DNA of 32,367 bases from Chloroflexota bacterium (GTDB lineage: Bacteria > Chloroflexota > Limnocylindria > Limnocylindrales > CSP1-4): contig JAUJNA010000004.1 of NCBI GenBank assembly GCA_030446555.1, positions 205,936 through 238,302 of the forward strand, read 5' to 3'. The notes beneath the pieces are model-generated. The model was given only the letters and a program-made list of their open reading frames with translations. It did not search any database and was not told the origin of the DNA. Shown here piece after piece: positions 7,140 to 30,962 of this stretch (the first letter of the stretch is position 1; the number at the start of each line of letters is the position of its first letter). A program made the translations under genes and the position numbers.

Positions 7140-8447
7140 TCAGGCCTCCAGCAGGTGGAAGAGGAGCCCGGTCGGGGCCTTGGGATGGAAGTAGGTCGAC
7201 TTCTGGGGCATCACCGCGCCCTGCTCCGCGACCTCGAGGATCCGTTCGGCCGGGGTCGGGTCCAGGAGGAAGCACGCGTCGCGCTCCGCGCTCTCGACCA
7301 GCCGCACCGCCTCGGCCGGCTCCTTGGTGTACGTCACCCATCCCCGTCCTCGAGGTCGGCCGGCCCGATGCCGGCCAGTCGCCCCAGGGCGATGGCCAGG
7401 ATGTCAGCGTCAAGCCAGCGAACTGCAGGACGGGAGATCGGCTCGGAGGAGCGGCTCGAACGCCTCACGACGCGCATGGAGCAGCCCCTCCCCCGCCGCG
7501 GGTCCAAAGGCCGAAGCGCACCGGTGATCCGGGCGGCCGGGGTCGGGCCATGATGCGCCGCAGCTCATCAGGATCGGTGACAGGGTCCACGTCGAACAGC
7601 GTGGTCGCCGCCGCGCGGAGATCGGCCTGGCGCGGAGCTCCGCTCACGACACGGTGCGTCGCCAGCACCGCCGGCGCCTCGTCGATCCCGTACACGAGCG
7701 CCAGCACGTGGTCGAACGGCTGATCGCTGCCCGCGGCCACCGCCTGTCGGCACTCCGCCTGGTAACGGAGGGCCGTCTCGTAGCGGTGATGACCGTCCGC
7801 GATGGTGAGGGGCGTCGACCGCAGGAGGACAGCAGCTCGCTCGCCGCGGTCGCCTGGGATGCGTCACCGAGATCCACGGGATGCATCCACAGCCGGTGTC
7901 GGATCCCATCACGCGCGACCGTGTCGGCCACCGGATCCGAAGCGGTCATCGCGTCGAGCAGCGCGCCGCTCCCGGCCTGCCCGTGGAGCAGCACGATGGG
8001 GCTGAGGTTGGCGCCCGTGGCACAGAGCAGCTGGTAGCGGTCCTCCTTGGGGCCGGTCATCGTCCGCTCGTGGGCCCGCACGCTGCTGTCAGGCCCCAGC
8101 GGCTCCAGGCGCAGCCGGCCCAGCACCCCTCGTGCCGTCAGCTGCCGTCCGTCAGCCGACAGACAGCGCATCTCGTGCACGTACAGGGATGGCTCCGGAT
8201 CCTGGCGCAGCGTCCCATCGGTGCGCCACTGGGCGAGCGTCCGTGCGGCGCCCTGATACCGGTCGTCCAGGTCACCGGCTGGTGCCGGAGGAAGCTCCAG
8301 GCGTACAGCGTTGTGCGGATCGCGCCGCAGCAGCTCCTGTTGCTGCTCGGGGCTGATGACGTCGTAGGGCGGGCAGAGCACCGCGGCAAGGTCAGGCACG
8401 CGCGCCGGATCGAAGCGCAGCCCCCGGAAGGGGCTCAGGATGGGCAC
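7140..8447 (-). CDS. DUF1015-family protein, apparent frameshifts in the C-terminal half
   Basis: VPILSPFRGLRFDPARVPDLAAVLCPPYDVISPEQQQELLRRDPHNAVRLELP; C-terminal QKSTYFHPKAPTGLLFHLLEA typical of DUF1015. Confidence 0.8.
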
Positions 8448-8562
8448 GCGGCGATGGTACCGGCGCCATCGACTCGCGTGGTGGCGCGAGGCGGCGGGGC
8501 GCCCGGCGCGGGTACCATGGGACGGCACGGATGCACGACCGCGAGTGGATCGGTAGACCCGG

Positions 8563-9024
8563 ATGGGACTCACGGGCACGCGCTTCGTGACGCGCGGACG
8601 CCTCATCGCGGCCCTCGTCCCGGCACTCGCCATCGCAGCATGCGGCTCCGCCGGGGCCTCTCCCACACCGCTGGGACTCACGGAGTTGCGCGTGCTCCTG
8701 GCACGCGATGGCGTCACGACACTCTCTGCCGTCAGCGGCGACTCCGGGTGCCCGGACCGGCCACTCTCCGACAACGCGCTGCACCTCACCGTGACGACCG
8801 CCTCGGACCGGACGCCAAGGGACCTGTACCTGTACCTGTTCCGCGCGCGCGATTTCGACGCCACCAAGGCGACCGTGGATGACTGCTTCGCCGATATCAG
8901 CGCAGCTCGACCCGGCGCGCGCATCGCCCGGATAGACGTGGCTCCATACCGGGCTCTCGGCGTGGACTGGTCCGCCGACCTCCACCGGGCCGTGGAGACG
9001 GCGCTCGCCGAGGCGGCACCCTGA
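8563..9024 (+). CDS. Putative secreted lipoprotein, unknown function
   Basis: N-terminal hydrophobic stretch with lipobox-like LAIAAC-GS; intact 153 aa ORF. Confidence 0.6.
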   Translation: MGLTGTRFVTRGRLIAALVPALAIAACGSAGASPTPLGLTELRVLLARDGVTTLSAVSGDSGCPDRPLSDNALHLTVTTASDRTPRDLYLYLFRARDFDATKATVDDCFADISAARPGARIARIDVAPYRALGVDWSADLHRAVETALAEAAP

Positions 9025-11140: not shown

Positions 11141-11165
11141 GCGTAGGGAATCACCCGATGCGAGG
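11141..11165 (+). promoter_or_regulatory. Dyad element copy E (gcgTAGGGAATCACCCGATGCGAGG)
   Basis: Same sequence as four minus-strand copies; followed after 15 nt by C-TACGGT (-10-like). Confidence 0.75.
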
Positions 11166-11194
11166 GTGCCGGTGGACGATCTACGGTGGCACGG

Positions 11195-11523
11195 ATGTCG
11201 ACTGACATGGAGGTCTCGCCAGCCGCGGTCCAGGACGACGTGACCGCGAGCTTCCTGGTCGAGTCATACACGCCGGATACCGCGTCGGGAGTCGCCTCGG
11301 CACGGCAGGGCGCGCTCGCCCGGTCGAGGCATCGGCCTCACCCAGCGGGACGATCCGCTACCAGGGGTCCATCGCGGTCCCCGGCGACGAGATCGTCTTC
11401 CATCTCTTCCTCGCGAGCGATGCCTCCCTGGTGCGGGAGCTGTGTCGGCGCGCCGGGATCCGCTGCGATCGGATCGTCGAGGCTGTCATCACCTGGACGC
11501 CATCTCGACCTACGCCCCCATGA
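11195..11523 (+). CDS. Small DUF4242-like protein with one apparent frameshift
   Basis: TASFLVESYTPDTASGVASARQGALA then VEASASPSGTIRYQGSIAVPGDEIVFHLFLASDASLVRELCRRAGIRCDRIVEAVITW* in another frame. Confidence 0.4.
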
Positions 11524-11542
11524 CCAGGAGATAGCGCCGCAG

Positions 11543-11590
11543 GCGACTCACTCCGTAGCCGGTCGAGCGACCCACTCCGTAGCGGGTCGA
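11543..11590 (+). repeat. 24-bp tandem repeat x2
   Basis: gcgactcactccgtagccggtcga / gcgacccactccgtagcgggtcga (2 mismatches). Confidence 0.85.
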
Positions 11591-11650
11591 GCTCATGGGG
11601 AAGGCATGTGCGCCCTTTTCCGGGTCGGCGAGGGAGTACGCTGCACTCCC

Positions 11651-14509
11651 ATGCCAGCCCCGATCGTGGGAAGGGACGGCGAGTGGCGCGCCATCGAACG
11701 GCTCCTCGAGGGCGCCGCGTCGGCCCCCGCGTCCTGGTCATGGACGGGGCGCCCGGGATCGGCAAGAGCAGCGTCTGGCGGGCCGCGCTGGCCGGATCGG
11801 AGGAGCGCGGGTTCCGGAACCTGATCTCGCACCGGCTGAGACGGAACAGGGTCTGCCGTACGCCGGTCTGCACGACCTCCTGGGCGCGATCCCCGACACC
11901 GACATCGCCGCGCTGCCGGAACCGCAGGCGCGTGCCTTGCGAGCCGCGCTCTACCGATCGGATCCGTCGGAGGGCACAGCGGACGCCGCAGCTGTGGCGA
12001 TCGCCACCTCCCGCCTCCTCCAGCGCATCGCCGAGCGTGGCCCGCTGTTGCTCGCGGTGGACGACCTCCAGTGGCTGGACGCCTCATCCACGGCGGTGTT
12101 TCGTTTCTGCCTTCGCCGCCTCGGCGCCGCACCCATCGCGGTGTTGATCTCCCGGCGCACTGGATCGCGGGAGGAGCGGGCTCGGACCTGGCGCCCGCCG
12201 ACATCATGGAGCAGGTCACCGTGGGTCCGCTCTCCCTGGGCGCACTCCACGCGGTCGTGCAGGAGCGGCTGGGCGTCCGGCTCGCCAGACCCGCCCTGGT
12301 CCGGCTTCACGAATCGACCGAGGGCAATCCCTACCTGGCGCTGGAGCTGGTGCGCGCGTACGGTCCGGAGGGCCCAGCGGCGATGCTCCAGGGAGCGCCT
12401 CCGACGGAGGTCCTCCGGAACGCACTGGGACATCGCATCGGGTCGTTGCCCAGACAGATGCGCCGGCTGCTGGAGACCACCGCGCTGCTCGGTCGGCCTC
12501 AGCGGTCGCTCCTGGTGCGCCTGATGGGCGACGACGACGACGCCACCGCCGCGAACCTGGCACGTGCCGAGCGCGCAGGCCTGCTCCGGGTCGAGGGCGA
12601 CCGTGTCCGCATCGATCACCCGCTCCTCGCTTCGGTCATCGCCGGTTCCATCCCCACGACCGAGCGGCGTCGCCTTCACCGGCGCATCGCCGAGGCCATG
12701 GACGAGGGACCGAGCGAGCTCGGCACCTGGCCGCCGCCTCCGACGGGCCGGACGAGGCGATCGCCGCCGCTCTCGACCTTGCCGCCGGCGGGGCGGCCGC
12801 GCTGGGGGCCTCGATCGAGGCTGCCGATCTGCGCGACCTGGCGTTGCGCCTCACACCGACGGACCAGCCCGAGGCGGCGGGTCGACGCCGCCTGGCGTTC
12901 GCGGAGGCGGTCTTCACCGCAGGCGACACCGGGAGGGCGCGCCGAGAACTGGAAGACGCGCTACCGGCGCTCGCGGAGCGGGACCAGCGCCTGGAGGCCC
13001 TCCTGCTGCTCGCCAGGATCCGGTGGTACGAGCACGACACGGAGGCGTGCGTGGAGACCGCCGAGCAGGCTCTCGCGGAGGCGGCGGACGACCGAGCCTG
13101 GCAGGCTCGGATCCCACTCCGCACTGTCGTGGATGCTCGACTTCGACCTCACCCGCCGGCTGACCCACGCGACCGCTGCCCTGGAGCTCATCGATCCCGA
13201 CGCCGAGCCGGCGCTCCGCGCTTTGCCGCTCCTCAACCAGGCCTGGACCCGCCTGCTGACCGGACACGGCGCCGACCACGCAGCGATCGAGCAAGGCGAT
13301 CGCCTTCAGCAGGAAGCAGGCAGGTGGGACTACAGCCCCGTCCCCGGGTATTGGGCCAAGGCGATGGACCAGCCGGTCCTGGCGCGCCAGCGATTCCGGG
13401 AGCTACCTCGACCGCGCACGGGCGTCCGGGGAAGAGAGCGCGGTCGCCGGTCTCTTGTCGTACCTGGCCGAGATGGAGTGCTGGGTCGGCCACGTCGACG
13501 AGGCTGAAGTCCTGGTAGAGGAAGCCGTGGAGGTGGCAGAGCAGACGGACCAGCGCGTCTACCTGGCCATCGCCCTCGCCCGACGAGCCCTGGTGCGGAC
13601 CTACCAGGCGATCTCGCGGCGGCCAAGGCTGACGCGGAGCGCAGCCTGCCGCTGGGGAACCCTCCGTTGCTACCGCCCGGGCCTCTTGCCGTCCTGGGGC
13701 TCATCGCTCTGACGGAGGACGACCCCGAGCGCGCCGATGATCTGCTATCACAAGCGGATGCGATGCTGGAGAGCGTCGGCATGCGGGAGCCGGCGAGCCA
13801 CCGGTTCCACGCGGATCACATCGAGGCCCTCATCCGCCTCGGGGAGCTCGATCGGGCCGAGCGGCTCCTGGAGAGGTTCGAGGCACGTGCGCGGAGCGTG
13901 CCTCGGCCGTGGATCGTGGCCACGGCAGCCCGGTGCCGTGGGCTGCTCCTGGCGGCGCGCGGCGACCTGCCGGCCGCCTCGTTCCACGCGGCACTCACGG
14001 CGCACGAGCAGCTCCAGATGCCGCTCGAGCTGGGGCGCACGCTCCTCGCGCAAGGGCTCGTCCAGCGGCGTGCTGGGCGGCGGAAGCTGGCGGAGGAGTC
14101 GTTCCAGCGCTCCGTTCAGGTGTTCGACGCGCTCGGGTGTGGCCCATGGGCCGACCGCGCGCGCGGCGAGCTCGATCGCCTTGGGACCCACAAGGGCGAG
14201 GAGGAGACGCTGACACCCAGCGAGGAGCGGATGGCGCGTCTAGCCGCGTCAGGCATGACCAACCGGGCCATCGCCGACCGGCTGTCGATCAGCCCCAAGA
14301 CCGTCGAGGCGAACCTGGCACGTGCTTACTCGAAGCTGGGCATCCGCACCCGGGCGGAGCTGGGGGCGACCATCGCCCTCACAGGAGGTTCGTCATCATC
14401 AGGGCAGATGACCTGGATCTCCACCGATGCTTCGTTGTTGCTCTCGTCGGACTCCGCCACCTCGTCACGGGAGTCCACGAGCTGGACGGTCACGACCTCG
14501 TTCACGTAG
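11651..14509 (+). CDS. LuxR-family transcriptional regulator, large ATP-binding (LAL/MalT-like) type, multiple apparent frameshifts
   Basis: MPAPIVGRDGEWRAIERLLEGA; LVMDGAPGIGKSSVWRAAL (Walker A); LLLAVDDLQWLDASS (Walker B); C-terminal LTPSEERMARLAASGMTNRAIADRLSISPKTVEANLARAYSKLGIRTRAELGA (LuxR HTH). Confidence 0.85.
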
Positions 14510-14983
14510 TCGGCATCGCCGAGGTCTCTCCAGACACGACGACGGATCCCCCGGGAGCAGGCCGTCGACGCCCGTGCTGCCGCCCGCCCTCCGACATCGT
14601 ACGAGTGGCGAACGGGCCGCTCGGTGCCTGGCCGACATTGCGGATGGTGAAGCCGATGGACATCGGGTTCCCGGACTCGACGGGCGGCGCCGTGACGTCC
14701 TCGATGACGAGGTCGGCCAGCCGGCTCGGTCGGAGGGGCCGTGGGTGGCGCGGTGGGCGGCATCCTCGGCGGTCGGGCGGGTCGGTCGGTGCGTTGCGGG
14801 CGCGGGCGACGGGCGAGTGGAGTCCGTCGTGCCCGGCGCGGCCGTGGGTGGCGCGCTGACGGACGGAGCGGTAGCCGTTGCCAGGGCGGGCGGCACGATC
14901 GCCGAGCCGGACGGCGCCGCCCCCACCTGCACGCAGGCCGTGGTCAGCAGGGCGATGATGGTGATGAACAGGCTTCGCGCCAT
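14326..14983 (-). CDS. CARDB-domain putative lipoprotein 1 (frameshifted)
   Basis: MARSLFITIIALLTTACVQVGAAPSGS; ADLVIEDVTAPPVESGNPMSIGFTIRNVGQAPSGPF; YVNEVVTVQLVDSRDEVAESDESNNEASVEIQVIC. Confidence 0.7.
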
Positions 14984-15045
14984 CGCAGGGCCTCCATAAG
15001 AGGTGGTCGTTCCTTCCACGCCGAACGCTAGGTCGGCCGACGACC

Positions 15046-15069
15046 CCTCGCATCGGGTGATTCCTATGC
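15046..15069 (-). promoter_or_regulatory. Dyad element copy A (one C shorter than the others)
   Basis: cctcgcatcgggtgattcctatgc; gene-sense TAGCGT -10-like hexamer at 15030-15025. Confidence 0.72.
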
Positions 15070-15106
15070 GCCGTGCGGCGCCGCGGACGATGAGACAGGA
15101 CCGACC

Positions 15107-15206
15107 GACTCGCGCGCGCTGCGACAAGCTGCGGCATCCGGTCCGCGCGGAGCTGGGGGCGACGGTCGCCCTCATGGGCACAGAGGGTCATCATCAGGAC
15201 AGATGA
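15107..15206 (+). pseudogene. Vestigial C-terminus of a LuxR-family regulator
   Basis: ARCDKLRHPVRAELGATVALMGT parallels ARAYSKLGIRTRAELGATIALTGG of the intact regulator tail; DNA similarity continues into the adjacent CARDB gene. Confidence 0.7.
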
Positions 15207-15800
15207 CCTGGATGCTCCACCGATGCTTCGTTGTTGGTCTCGTCGGACTCCGCCACCTCGTCACGGGAGTCCACCACGAGCTGGACGGTCACGACCTCGT
15301 TCACGTAGTCCGCGTCGCCGAGATGCTGCACCACGAGGACCCACTCACCGGCGGTCAGCGCGGCCCCACGTCCTGGTACAGGGCGTGGCCGCGCCCTCCT
15401 CCGACGGTGTACGAGTTGGCGACTCGGCCGCTCGCTGCCTGGCCGACGTTCCGGATCGTAAAGTATATGGTTATCCCACTCCCGGACTCGACGGACTGCG
15501 GCCGCCTCGATGTCCTCGATGACGAGGTCAGCCAGCGGCGGCTCCGTCGGTGGCGCGGTCGGTGGCGCGGTCGGTGGGATCGTCGGTGGTCGGCTGGGTC
15601 GGTCGGTGCGTTGCGGGCGCGGCCGACGGGTGCGACGGGCTCCGGCGTCCCCGGCGCAGCGGTAAGCGGGGCGCTGAGGACTGGAGCGCTCGTGGCTCCT
15701 GAGCGGGCGGCACGATCGCCGAGCCGGACGGTGCTGACCCCACCTGCACGCAGGCTACGGCCAGCAGGGCGATAAGGGTGATGAACAGGCTTCGCGGCAT
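15172..15800 (-). CDS. CARDB-domain putative lipoprotein 2 (frameshifted)
   Basis: MPRSLFITLIALLAVACVQVGSAPSGS; FTIRNVGQAASG; YVNEVVTVQLVVDSRDEVAESDETNNEAS. Confidence 0.7.
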
Positions 15801-15860
15801 CGGAGTCGGCCTCCCAAGGTGGTCGCTGGTTTCCACGCCACGCTAGCCGTGCGGACGACG

Positions 15861-15885
15861 CCTCGCATCGGGTGATTCCCTATGC
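15861..15885 (-). promoter_or_regulatory. Dyad element copy B
   Basis: cctcgcatcgggtgattccctatgc; 14 nt then CTAGCGT in gene sense. Confidence 0.75.
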
Positions 15886-15952
15886 CGGTGGGCCGACGCG
15901 GCAGACCCGTCTGGGCCCGATGATGTCCGGGTCAGCCGACTCGGCGTCAGAA

Positions 15953-16572
15953 TCAGGAACGGTCTTCACGCTTCAAGGGGATGGGGCCGTTGTCCTCCTC
16001 GTTGGACTCGACCACCGCGTTAAGCGTATCCAACGTGAGTTCAGCAGGAACGTTGAGATCCGGCGGCCCGCTCAAGTCGGCACGCATCCTGATCGTGGCT
16101 ACTGAGTAAGCCGGCAGCCCCTCGACGACCTCATTCATCACCCGCATCTTACAAACGGCTGAGGCCAGGAACTTCCCAGCGTCCGCTGTTCCTGTGTTGT
16201 CCACGACCACCTGGAGCACCAGCTCGGTCCCGTCGACATAGGCGGACCAGCTGCGGAGCACAAGGTCAGGCAAGGCGGCCTGGGTCGGAGGCGCGGTGGG
16301 GTGCCGTGGGCGGTTCCGGCGGTGGTGCGGTGAGCGGTGCGGTCGGTGGCGCGGTAGGGAGTTCCGGCGCTGGCGCCGTCGACGGTGGTGTCGGTCCGCC
16401 CTCGCGCGGGTTGCGAGGGCGACGTGTCTTGGCCGGATCCGGCGTACTGACACCTGGAGCGCTCGTCGCTCCCGGAGCGGGCGGCACGACCGGGGAGCCA
16501 GACGCGCCGCCCCACCTGCACGCAGGCTGTGGCCAGGAGAGCGACAAGGATCATGGACAAGGTGCGCGGCAT
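15953..16572 (-). CDS. CARDB-domain putative lipoprotein 3 (frameshifted)
   Basis: MPRTLSMILVALLATACVQVG; LPDLVLRSWSAYVDGTELVLQVVVDNTGTADAGKF...LTLDTLNAVVESNEEDN. Confidence 0.7.
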
Positions 16573-16635
16573 CGGGTGGACCTCAAGAGGAGGGTTGCTG
16601 TCCGTTCCACCCGAACGCTAGGTCCGCTGAGGAGT

Positions 16636-16660
16636 CCTCGCATCGGGTGATTCCCTACGT
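16636..16660 (-). promoter_or_regulatory. Dyad element copy C
   Basis: cctcgcatcgggtgattccctacgt; 14 nt then CTAGCGT in gene sense. Confidence 0.75.
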
Positions 16661-16721
16661 CGCCGGGTGACGCCGAAGACCAGGATCGCGCCCGACGATC
16701 TCCTGGTCAGTCCACTCGGCA

Positions 16722-17370
16722 TCAGACCTGGCACGCTGGGTCCTCGAATGGGATGAAGTTGTTGGTCTCGTTGGATTCCAGCACCGTGTTCGTGGCGTCC
16801 AACAGGACCCTCTGAGGTGTGAAACTGCCCGAACCGTTCCCCGAGACCATCAGATCGACCGTCGCTGTCGAGCCGGCCGACAGCCCCTCGGCGACCCCGC
16901 TCGACAGGAACCCGGAACAGATGGCTTCCACGGTGAACCCGCGCCTGCCTCCCCAGCTCCGATGTTCTTGACGTACACCTTGATCTTCAGGACATCCGGA
17001 TCGGCCTCATCGACATAGATGGTCAAGCCTAGGAGGTCGAGATCCGGCATGGCGACCTGGGTGGGAGGCGCGGTGGGGGTTCGGTCGGAGGCGCCGTGGG
17101 TGGCGCGGAAGGCTGCATGGGAGGTTGCGTGGGAGGTTGCGTGGGTCGGTCCGTGCGTTGCGGGCGCGGCCGACGGGTGCGACCGGGATCCGGCGCCCGC
17201 GGCGCAGCGGTAAGCGGGGCGCTGGTGGCAGGGGCGCTCGTCGCTCCGGGAGCGCGCGGTACGACCGGCGAGCCAGACGGCGCCGCCGGCGAGCCGGACG
17301 GGGCCGTCCCCAGCTGCACGCAGGCCGTGGTCAGCAGGGCGATGAGGGTGATGAACAGGCTTCGCGCCAT
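16722..17370 (-). CDS. CARDB-domain putative lipoprotein 4 (frameshifted)
   Basis: MARSLFITLIALLTTACVQLGTAPSGS; MPDLDLLGLTIYVDEADPDVLKIKVYVKNIGAGEAG; LLDATNTVLESNETNNFIPF. Confidence 0.7.
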
Positions 17371-17430
17371 CGGAGGGCCTCCATCAGGTTCTGGTTCCTT
17401 CCACCCCGAACCCTAGGTCGGAGGAGCACG

Positions 17431-17455
17431 CCTCGCATCGGGTGATTCCCTATGC
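17431..17455 (-). promoter_or_regulatory. Dyad element copy D
   Basis: cctcgcatcgggtgattccctatgc; 14 nt then CTAGGGT in gene sense. Confidence 0.75.
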
Positions 17456-17478
17456 CGAGGGTCGCGATCCTCGCCCGA

Positions 17479-18135
17479 TCAGCCCTCTCGGCAGAAGACG
17501 CCGCAGTCGACCTGGACCTGCTGCGCTGCCTCGTTGTTCCCCTCGTCGGACTCGGCGACCTCGTCGTCGGAGTCGATGATGACGCGGATGCTCACGGAGG
17601 TGTCCTCCTGGGGCGCCGCGCCGACCTGGTGCACCGCGTCGAGCGTCTCGCCCGCGCCCAGGCCGTCAACAAAGCCCCGACCGGCCCCACCGAACCGCCA
17701 GACGTATTGGAACGGGCCCGTCGCTGCCTCCCCGACGTTGCGGATGACCAGGCTGATCTCGCCGCTCTCCGTCCACCACGGACTCGGGGCGTTGAAGCTC
17801 TCGATGACGAGGTCCGGCAAGGGCGGCTGCGTGGGGGTTCGCGTAGGCGGTCGCGTGGGTCGGTCCGTGCGCGGGTTGCCAGGGCCTCGGGTACGAGTGG
17901 GCTCGGTCGTGCCCACCGCGGTCGTGGGCGGCGCGGTGACGGATGGAGCGCTCGGCGTCCCGGCTGCGGAGGGGCAGCCAGCGAGGTAAACGGGGCGGCC
18001 GCCGGAGCCGGACTCGGGCGGCTACCTCCCGCGTAGGCCGTGGACCTAAGAGCGACAAGGGCCTGCATCCCCTGCACCGCCACGGCTCTGCTGCTTCTTC
18101 TTCCCGCCGCCGAATAGACTTCGGATCGCGTCCAT
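17479..18135 (-). CDS. CARDB-domain protein 5, N-terminus uncertain
   Basis: LPDLVIESFNAPSPWWTESGEISLVIRNVGEAATGPFQYVWRFGG...DSDDEVAESDEGNNEAAQQVQVDC. Possible ATG at 18135 after AGGAGG, giving MDAIRSLFGGGKKKQQS, then a frameshift. Confidence 0.55.
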
Positions 18136-28440: not shown

Positions 28441-29531
28441 TCAGTGGCCCTCACCGTCCAGGAGCTGCCCGCCGTCACCCATGAACCGCGTCGTGCGCCA
28501 CAGAGGGTCATCCATGCGGGCGGGTGGCGCATCGGCGTAGACGTGCCGCTGCGCCGTGGCAGGGTCAGGGTCTGACTGTTCCTCCGCCCAGTCCGTCGCG
28601 TCCTCGACCACCCTGCGCGCCTCGGCCGTGATGCGCTGCTCCTCATCGTCATCCAGGATCCCCGCCGCCCGCAGCTGGTCGCGGAAGCGCGGCAGCGGAT
28701 CGCGCATCCTTCTCCGCCTCGAGCTCCTCGCTGGAGCGGTACTTGGTCTGCTGGTCATCGGAGGAATGAGCCGTCATGCGCGTGACCTTGGCTTCGATGA
28801 GCGTCGGGCCGACGCCGGATCGCGCCCTGTCGATGGCCTCCTTGCCGGCTCGGTAGCAGTCGAGCACATCGGCGCCGTCGCAGATGACGCCCGGCATCCC
28901 GTAACCCGCGCCGCGCACCGCGATGTCCTCCACGGCCGATTGGAGGCTCATGGGCACGCTGATGGCGTAGCCGTTGTTCTCGACCACGAAGACCACCGGC
29001 AGCTTGTGGATGCCCGCAAAGTTGAGCGCCTCGTGGAAGTCACCCTGGTTGCTGGAGCCCTCGCCCAGGTAGGTGATGGCGACCTGCTCGGTCCGGCGCA
29101 GCTTGGCCGCGTAGGCGATCCCGGTCGCGTGGAGGACCTGAGTGGCGACCGGTGAGCTGACCGACAGGATGTTGCGCTCGGCGATGCCGTAGTGGCCGGG
29201 CATCTGCCGGCCGCCGGAGCTGGATCCACACCCCGGGCGAACTGCGCGAGCACGATGCCGCGGGGGACATGCCGAAGGTGATGAGGCTGGCCACCGAGCG
29301 GTAGTACGGGACCATCCAGTCGTGGCCCTTGCGCAGACCGTAGCCGATCCCCACCTGTGCCCCTTCGTGACCCTGGCCGCTGATGACGAAGGGGATCTTG
29401 CCGGCCCGGTTGAGGATCCACATCCGCTCGTCGACGGCACGCGTGACGGCCATGAGCGAGTACATCTCGAGGAGGTGGTCGCGACCGAGGCCCAGGTCCG
29501 ATCCGAGCGCCGGTTGTGTATCGGTGGCCAT
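28441..29531 (-). CDS. 2-oxoacid dehydrogenase E1 alpha subunit, apparent frameshifts
   Basis: DHLLEMYSLMAVTRAVDERMWILNRAGKIPFVISGQGHEGAQVGIGYGL; GHYGIAERNILSVSSPVATQVLHATGIAYAAK; YLGEGSSNQGDFHEALNFAGIHKLPVVFVVENNGYAISVP; C-terminus MRDPLPRFRDQLRAAGILDDDEEQRI in another frame. Confidence 0.88.
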
Positions 29532-30962
29532 CAGGAAGCTGATGCTGCGCCCATCGACGGCCAGGGCTGCTTCGCCGAGACCCTCCGACAGGGTGGGATG
29601 CGGGTGGACGGCCGTACCCAGCTCCCAGGCAGTCGCCTCGAAGAGCATCGCCGCGCTGGCCTCGGCGATGAGGTCGGTGACGTGGGGGCCGATCGTGGTG
29701 CACGCCGGCGATCTCGTCCGTCTCGCGGTGCGCGATGACCTTCGTGAACCCCTCCGTATCGCCCCCGATGAGCGCCTTGCCGACCGCCGCATAGGGCACC
29801 TTGCCGATCTTCGTGGGGATCCCCTCGCGCTCGCACTCCTGCTCGCTGCGGCCGATGGACGCGATCTGGGGCCGGCTGTATGTCGCGCGGGGCATCTTGA
29901 GGTAGTCGACCCTTTCGGCCTCGGCGCCGGCGATGGCATGCACGGCGGCGATGCCCTCGTGTGCCGCCACGTGAGCCAGCCACAGCCCGCCGATGATGTC
30001 GCCGATGGCGTAGAGGTGCGGCTCGGCGGTGCGCATGCGGTGGTCCACCTGCACGATGCCCTTCTCGAGCTTGGCGCGCGTGTTCTCGAGGCCCACCCGG
30101 TCCGTGTTCGGGGCGCGGCCCGCGGCCACCAGCATCTGGTCGGCGCGGAGCTCCTGGGGCTGCTCGCCCTCTCGGCCGACCATGACACAGACCCCGCGCT
30201 CGTCGACGATCACGGAGGCGGGGTCGAACCGCGCGCTCGTCATGACCGTGATACCTCGCTTCGTGAATGATCGCTCCAGGGCGGTGGAGACCTCCCCATC
30301 CTCCAGCGGCACGATCGACGGCAGGTACTCCAGGACGGTCACCTCGGCGCCCATGTCCCGGTAGTAGCTGGCGAACTCCACCCCCACGGCCCCGGCGCCG
30401 ACAACGATGAGGCTCTTCGGCACGCTCTCGGCGCGCAGGACGTCGTCACTGGTGACGATGCGCTGGCCATCGGTCTGGAGCCCGGGCAGGCTCTTGACCC
30501 GGCTCCCCGTGGCGAGGATGACATCGGTCCCCTCGAGCACGATGTCACCTGCCGGACTGCCGTCCTCATCGAGCTTCGCCACCTTGACCTTCTTGCCCGA
30601 CTGGAGGACGCCGCGCCCGCGCACGAACTCGACCTTGTTCTTCTTGACGAGGCTCATGAGCCCCTTGGTCAAGCGGTCGACCACCTGCTGGCGGCGTCGC
30701 GCGACCATCGCCCCGTCGATGGAATGATCGCCGACGTGGACCCCGAAGTCACCGGCGTGCTTGACCTTGTCGTACAGGTCGGCCGACTCGAGCATCGCCT
30801 TGGTGGGGATGCAGCCCGAGTGCAGGCAGGTGCCTCCGATCTTCCTTCGTCCACGAGCGCGACCCGAAGACCGAGCTGCCCGGCCCTGAACGCCGCGGAG
30901 TAGCCTCCGGTCCCGGCACCCAGGACGACGAGATCGAAGCTGTTGGAGGAGCCGACGGCCAC
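29529..30962 (-). CDS. lpd: Dihydrolipoyl dehydrogenase (E3), apparent frameshifts
   Basis: FDLVVLGAGTGGYSAAFRAGQLGLRVALVDE; shifted frame IGGTCLHSGCIPTKAMLES (redox disulfide); VGAGAVGVEFASYYRDMGAEVTVLE; C-terminal IGPHVTDLIAEASAAMLFEATAWELGTAVHPHPTLSE. Confidence 0.9.

Follow-up and report, generated by a model that had tools for sequence, protein, structure and literature searches.

The locus at positions 11141-18135 of the window, i.e., of the whole stretch of 32,367 nucleotides that was analysed, raises the question of whether a LuxR-type regulator, a small gene next to it and five consecutive genes for CARDB proteins are joined by one regulatory signal, and what kind of system they would then form. 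The original prediction was a self-contained, ligand-responsive and variable surface-protein locus, which combines a LuxR-type regulator with a CARDB array.

Composition of the locus

The genome is a 2.09-Mb Chloroflexota bin, which is 78% complete. The locus is located on contig C6 and is bordered by an acetyl-CoA synthetase-like gene on one side and an rRNA methylase-like gene on the other. Its predicted content was borne out: a divergent member of the SCO4226-like family (DUF4242 by its former name), a LAL/LuxR regulator gene and, on the strand opposite to these two, a tandem series of five CARDB genes (Table 1). No Rfam element was found in the region.

Table 1. Coordinates of the features of the locus within the window
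Feature	Position	Strand	Remark
Operator dyad GCGTAGGGAATCACCCGATGC of the SCO4226-like gene	11141..11161	+	also kept upstream of this gene in relatives
Candidate -10 TACGGT	11182..11187	+	21 nt after operator core, 7 nt before small-gene ATG
Divergent SCO4226-like (DUF4242) gene	11195..11523	+	one frame change near 11305-11330
LAL/LuxR regulator: AAA_16 ATPase, helical/TPR middle, GerE HTH	11651..14400	+	about 7 frame changes
CARDB lipoprotein copy 1	14380..14983	-	stitched frames
Candidate -10 TAGCGT of CARDB copy 1	15025..15030	-	20 nt after operator core
Operator of CARDB copy 1	15050..15069	-	one G deleted
Decayed duplicate of LAL 3' end	15125..15207	+	between CARDB copies 1 and 2
CARDB lipoprotein copy 2	15180..15800	-	stitched frames
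Operator of CARDB copy 2	15865..15885	-	
CARDB lipoprotein copy 3	15953..16572	-	Pfam CARDB 4e-7
Operator of CARDB copy 3	16640..16660	-	
CARDB lipoprotein copy 4	16722..17370	-	stitched frames
Operator of CARDB copy 4	17435..17455	-	
CARDB copy 5	17479..18135	-	Pfam CARDB 1e-11

The regulator had been described as a Walker ATPase with a LuxR HTH, and Pfam confirmed both parts: AAA_16 was matched with 6e-9 (7e-18 in an intact relative) and GerE (PF00196) with 3e-12 in 13607-14506. The protein thus has the N-terminal AAA/STAND ATPase with Walker motifs and the C-terminal GerE/LuxR HTH by which LAL membership is recognised, and the recognition helix of its HTH is SPKTVEANL. Ligand response is a property ascribed to LAL proteins as a family. 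LAL proteins comprise about 900 amino acids in a single frame, and open LAL frames of intact relatives comprise 920-992 amino acids; the window LAL is broken by frame changes.

The small protein matches PF14026, the SCO4226-like family, with 2e-4, which is under the curated cut-off, and a profile of its subfamily matches the second half of the gene with 1.7e-22. PF14026 is matched by 33 of 37 subfamily members, some of them well over the cut-off, and a comparison at profile level places the subfamily and SCO4226 in the same family (6.8e-5). In SCO4226 of Streptomyces coelicolor (PDB 4oi3/4oi6), the ligands of Ni-1 are Asp43, Ser46 and His76 (PMC4186839). These positions align with Val/Ile, Asp and Val/hydrophobic residues in the subfamily, and nickel sensing is therefore not supported; a nickel response was dismissed on this ground. 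Canonical SCO4226 members, in contrast, have no such LAL neighbour. A structure prediction from the single sequence was poor (pLDDT 53) and was set aside. Instead of storing nickel, the small protein most likely serves the LAL as a feedback partner or as a cofactor that binds a ligand.

CARDB (PF07705) scores over the cut-off in copies 3 and 5, and the other copies align once their frames are stitched. As described, four copies carry the MxRSLFITLIALLxTACVQ signal, and the Pro/Thr-rich linker and the ESxExxN ending were found as well. Copies 1 to 4 have an ALLxTACVQ-type lipobox Cys, with T or A instead of L at position -3; copy 5 has Tyr in place of the Cys and no upstream operator. Between copies 1 and 2, a duplicate of the LAL 3' end is found (80% over 86 nt, 1e-16), and the spacers 2/3 and 3/4 of the array resemble each other, which points to tandem duplication of a CARDB gene plus operator, starting from the LAL end. 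Of the proposed variability, the diversified tandem duplicates stand; a switching mechanism was not seen.

Frame changes in the window copy

Every gene of the locus contains frame changes, about seven in the LAL gene and one to four in each of the others, and the window copy could thus be decaying. According to this explanation, the array would consist of pseudogenes with genuine frame changes, in line with about 20 frame changes within 7 kb, the loss of the lipobox Cys and operator in copy 5 and the decayed LAL fragment within the array. We regard a decaying remnant as rather unlikely, since the stitched LAL frames lack internal stops and keep the Walker motifs and the GerE HTH, the operators are near-identical across copies and a paralogue on contig C21 is intact (197-202 amino acids, CARDB 3e-14). 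Moreover, conserved neighbours apparently show milder frame damage too, as in error-prone assemblies: most large neighbour genes give full-length Pfam matches, and partial matches to DUF1015 (7644-8924) and to Pyr_redox_dim in a dihydrolipoamide dehydrogenase-like gene (28948-30795) suggest indels there as well. The frame changes are probably assembly errors, and polishing by homology has perhaps left errors where a template was missing.

A shared operator and its promoter context

A 21-bp dyad, GCATAGGGAATCACCCGATGC, is located upstream of the small gene and of CARDB copies 1 to 4. In the window it is present four times in exact form and once with a 1-nt deletion, compared to 0.02 copies expected by chance in shuffled sequence, and five copies were reached in 0 of 100 shuffles. 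The dyad joins four CARDB lipoprotein genes to the small gene beside the regulator, in agreement with the single regulatory signal that had been proposed. The locus is not self-contained, however: the genome contains the extended operator GGAATCACCCGATGCGAGG eight times, against none for a reversed-pattern control, and three of these are found outside the window (two on C21, one on C7), so that the regulon extends beyond the locus. One operator on C21 precedes the intact sixth CARDB lipoprotein, and one G of the GGG is gone both here and in the operator of copy 1. Since the single-strand fold of the operator region is no better than that of shuffles (z -0.14), the dyad reads as a DNA element and not as a folded element.

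On C7 (L031 around 5188; G000:C7:99187), an operator with a -10 lies ahead of a frame-shifted lipoprotein-like gene (MNMMKALLPLLLVVAVGATGCTSA). An orphan operator on C21 (L033 around 4654; G000:C21:206632) deviates from the extended core by one mismatch, shows TGGCGT where the -10 would be and is followed by no evident gene. An exact 17-mer scan of all GTDB genomes gave 17 matches, mostly scattered as by chance, which makes a raw motif scan unsuited as a test. Matches with two mismatches are present in 95 of 177 class genomes and were mostly rejected as background; the sites of L125, L127-L130, L133 and L196 lack promoter context.

The hexamer TA[GC]NNT occurs 19-21 nt past the 17-bp core at 6 of 7 exact core sites and, if up to two mismatches are allowed, at 14 of 31 sites; its background frequency is 0.16%. 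Some LAL-linked sites lack a clear -10 at fixed spacing. The spacing of 19-21 nt places the centre of the dyad near -41, the position of class II activators, which is typical of LuxR-type activators. No recognisable -35 of its own was found beside the dyad. An ECF sigma promoter was rejected because of the spacing of roughly 20 nt to the -10 and the dyad symmetry.

Proposed mechanism

The reading that we favour, with a probability of about two in three, is that of an autoregulated envelope-response activator of the LAL type, which would bind the dyad at a class II position and whose output array would have arisen by tandem duplication. A LAL dimer would bind GCATAGGGAATCACCCGATGC via the GerE HTH, and the dyad would stand in for the -35 element, with a TA[GC]NGT -10 following after 20-21 nt. 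Some signal would switch on the ATPase/helical sensor, and the active LAL would turn on its own operon, which in this genome comprises the SCO4226-like gene followed by the LAL gene. It would also induce exported lipoproteins, namely four CARDB copies in the locus and, at other places in the genome, a further CARDB copy and a different lipoprotein; the CARDB proteins presumably act at the cell surface. The SCO4226-like protein, usually encoded beside the LAL under the same operator, may have a feedback or ligand-binding role. The array would have grown by tandem duplication of a unit that begins with the LAL 3' end and includes a CARDB gene together with its operator.

The LAL could also bind the dyad as a repressor and keep both its own operon and the lipoprotein genes silent until a signal relieves the block. 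A bound repressor would equally obstruct RNA polymerase, since the dyad overlaps the -35 region, and autoregulation through repression is common. However, most of the LAL/MalT-type and LuxR-type regulators that have been characterised are activators, and the missing separate -35 beside the dyad speaks against repression as well. In mycobacteria, the signal-transduction ATPase IniR, which has a C-terminal LuxR-type HTH, induces iniBAC and is required for this induction, according to the passages available (PMC5760070). Repression is thus an unlikely mode of action.

Co-variation of operator and recognition helix

The operator tracks the recognition helix of the linked LAL when loci are compared at the sequence level, also after control for the rest of the HTH. 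The helix PKTVEANL pairs with TAGGGAATCACCCGATG, PKTVGNVL with GATCGGGGTAATCACCCCTTTC, SAKTVEGHL with AAGGGATTCTCAAGGGTTATCCC, GERTVAGHL/ASHL with AGACGTTCTGACGTTTC and SVRAVEANL with TGTGGCTTTCCACA. Using operator segments chosen by eye, a version biased by this selection, a Mantel test gave r=0.76, and r=0.69 as a partial correlation that controls for the rest of the HTH (p=0.0001); the less biased version with unselected 115-nt upstream stretches gave r=0.48 and a partial r of 0.32 (p=0.0002). Both cover 21-23 loci that are related by descent, and the control is the rest of the HTH only. That another regulator or some alternative sigma factor reads the dyad, with the LAL as a bystander, is very improbable: some operator copies are far from any LAL (L031, L032), but helix and operator co-vary beyond the rest of the HTH, and both the symmetry and the spacing of about 20 nt to the -10 fit ECF promoters poorly.

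Conservation in relatives

A search with the subfamily profile detected divergent SCO4226-like proteins in 35 of 177 class genomes, which belong to 19 genera, and they also occur in other families of the phylum. Of 44 relatives of the small gene, 33 have a LAL (at least 100 bits) encoded no more than 1.5 kb away, compared to 0 of 30 canonical SCO4226 genes, 5 of which have a weaker LAL-like match of at least 60 bits; the LAL profile was built from operator-linked LALs and favours that subfamily. The other 11 of the 44 genes have no LAL within 1.5 kb, and some of them lie on short contigs. Outside the class, a LAL-like match was found at 10 of 14 loci, some of them weak. Relatives therefore do not support the self-contained system of LuxR and CARDB that had been proposed; as judged from these genomes, the conserved unit is the LAL, the SCO4226-like gene and the operator. 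The usual gene order in relatives is LAL, operator and small gene, and in 9 of 11 loci with a window-type operator (counted by eye) the LAL frame ends at the operator, whose TAG serves as its stop codon. The window order is operator, small gene and LAL, which would make the operon autoregulated.

CARDB targets were found solely in this genome and, with operator, in the congener G001 (CARDB 7e-12), whose bin, which is 62% complete, yielded no regulator. Other LAL-linked operators stand ahead of a Ser/Pro-rich lipoprotein (G077), another one (congener G003, where the core has more mismatches), a large Big_3_5/EF-hand protein (G056) and exported proteins without a Pfam family (G120, G123 and G130). 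Going by their sequences, the operator targets are mostly exported proteins, which differ between lineages.

Relation to known systems

The system resembles IniR-iniBAC in the combination of an ATPase, a C-terminal LuxR-type HTH and an envelope-related output; the iniBAC targets, in contrast, are not CARDB proteins, and the IniR-iniBAC passages available mention neither a SCO4226-like partner nor tandem operators (PMC5760070). The NCBIfam model of IniR gave 38.8 bits in a relative (L046), at the HTH end only, against an equivalog cut-off of 750. The PimM/PAS-LuxR box, CTVGGGAWWTCCCBAG, is likewise a dyad with GGG and CCC arms for a LuxR-type HTH, with four bases between the arms compared to five here; PimM, however, is a PAS-LuxR and not a LAL protein and controls polyene antibiotic clusters (PMC6448028). 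SCO0877 and SCO7173 are LAL regulators (ATPase and LuxR HTH) with poorly known signals, and the available part of their abstract mentions no paired small gene and no operator family (PMC3282765). In the papers searched, no description of the LAL, SCO4226-like gene and operator or CARDB arrangement was found, and neither CARDB with LuxR and Chloroflexi nor LuxR with CARDB domain and lipoprotein retrieved a paper. Judged by titles and abstracts, none of the three papers in which DUF4242 occurs deals with a LuxR-linked system.

It is possible, at somewhat less than even odds, that the locus belongs to a Chloroflexota-wide family of paired LAL and SCO4226-like proteins, in which each pair has its own co-evolved operator and lineage-specific exported targets, one of them multiplied into a tandem lipoprotein array, and in which the small protein is a sensor or feedback subunit of a STAND regulator. 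To our knowledge, inducers and operators of LAL proteins have been established in few cases. Here, the sequences yield more than 20 pairs of regulator and operator, which opens the specificity code of the HTH and the function of the conserved small partner to direct tests and provides a first handle on surface-lipoprotein control in an uncultured Chloroflexota lineage.

Further arrangements of the pair were observed. In another genus (L183, G102:C30), the whole LAL and SCO4226-like pair is tandemly duplicated, and in L034 (G002:C163) a 552-aa LAL frame lies between two SCO4226-like genes and ends without HTH at the operator. In the window, two 24-bp direct repeats at 11543-11590 (GCGACTCACTCCGTAGCCGGTCGA and GCGACCCACTCCGTAGCGGGTCGA) separate the small gene from the LAL gene and are possibly a second regulatory site.
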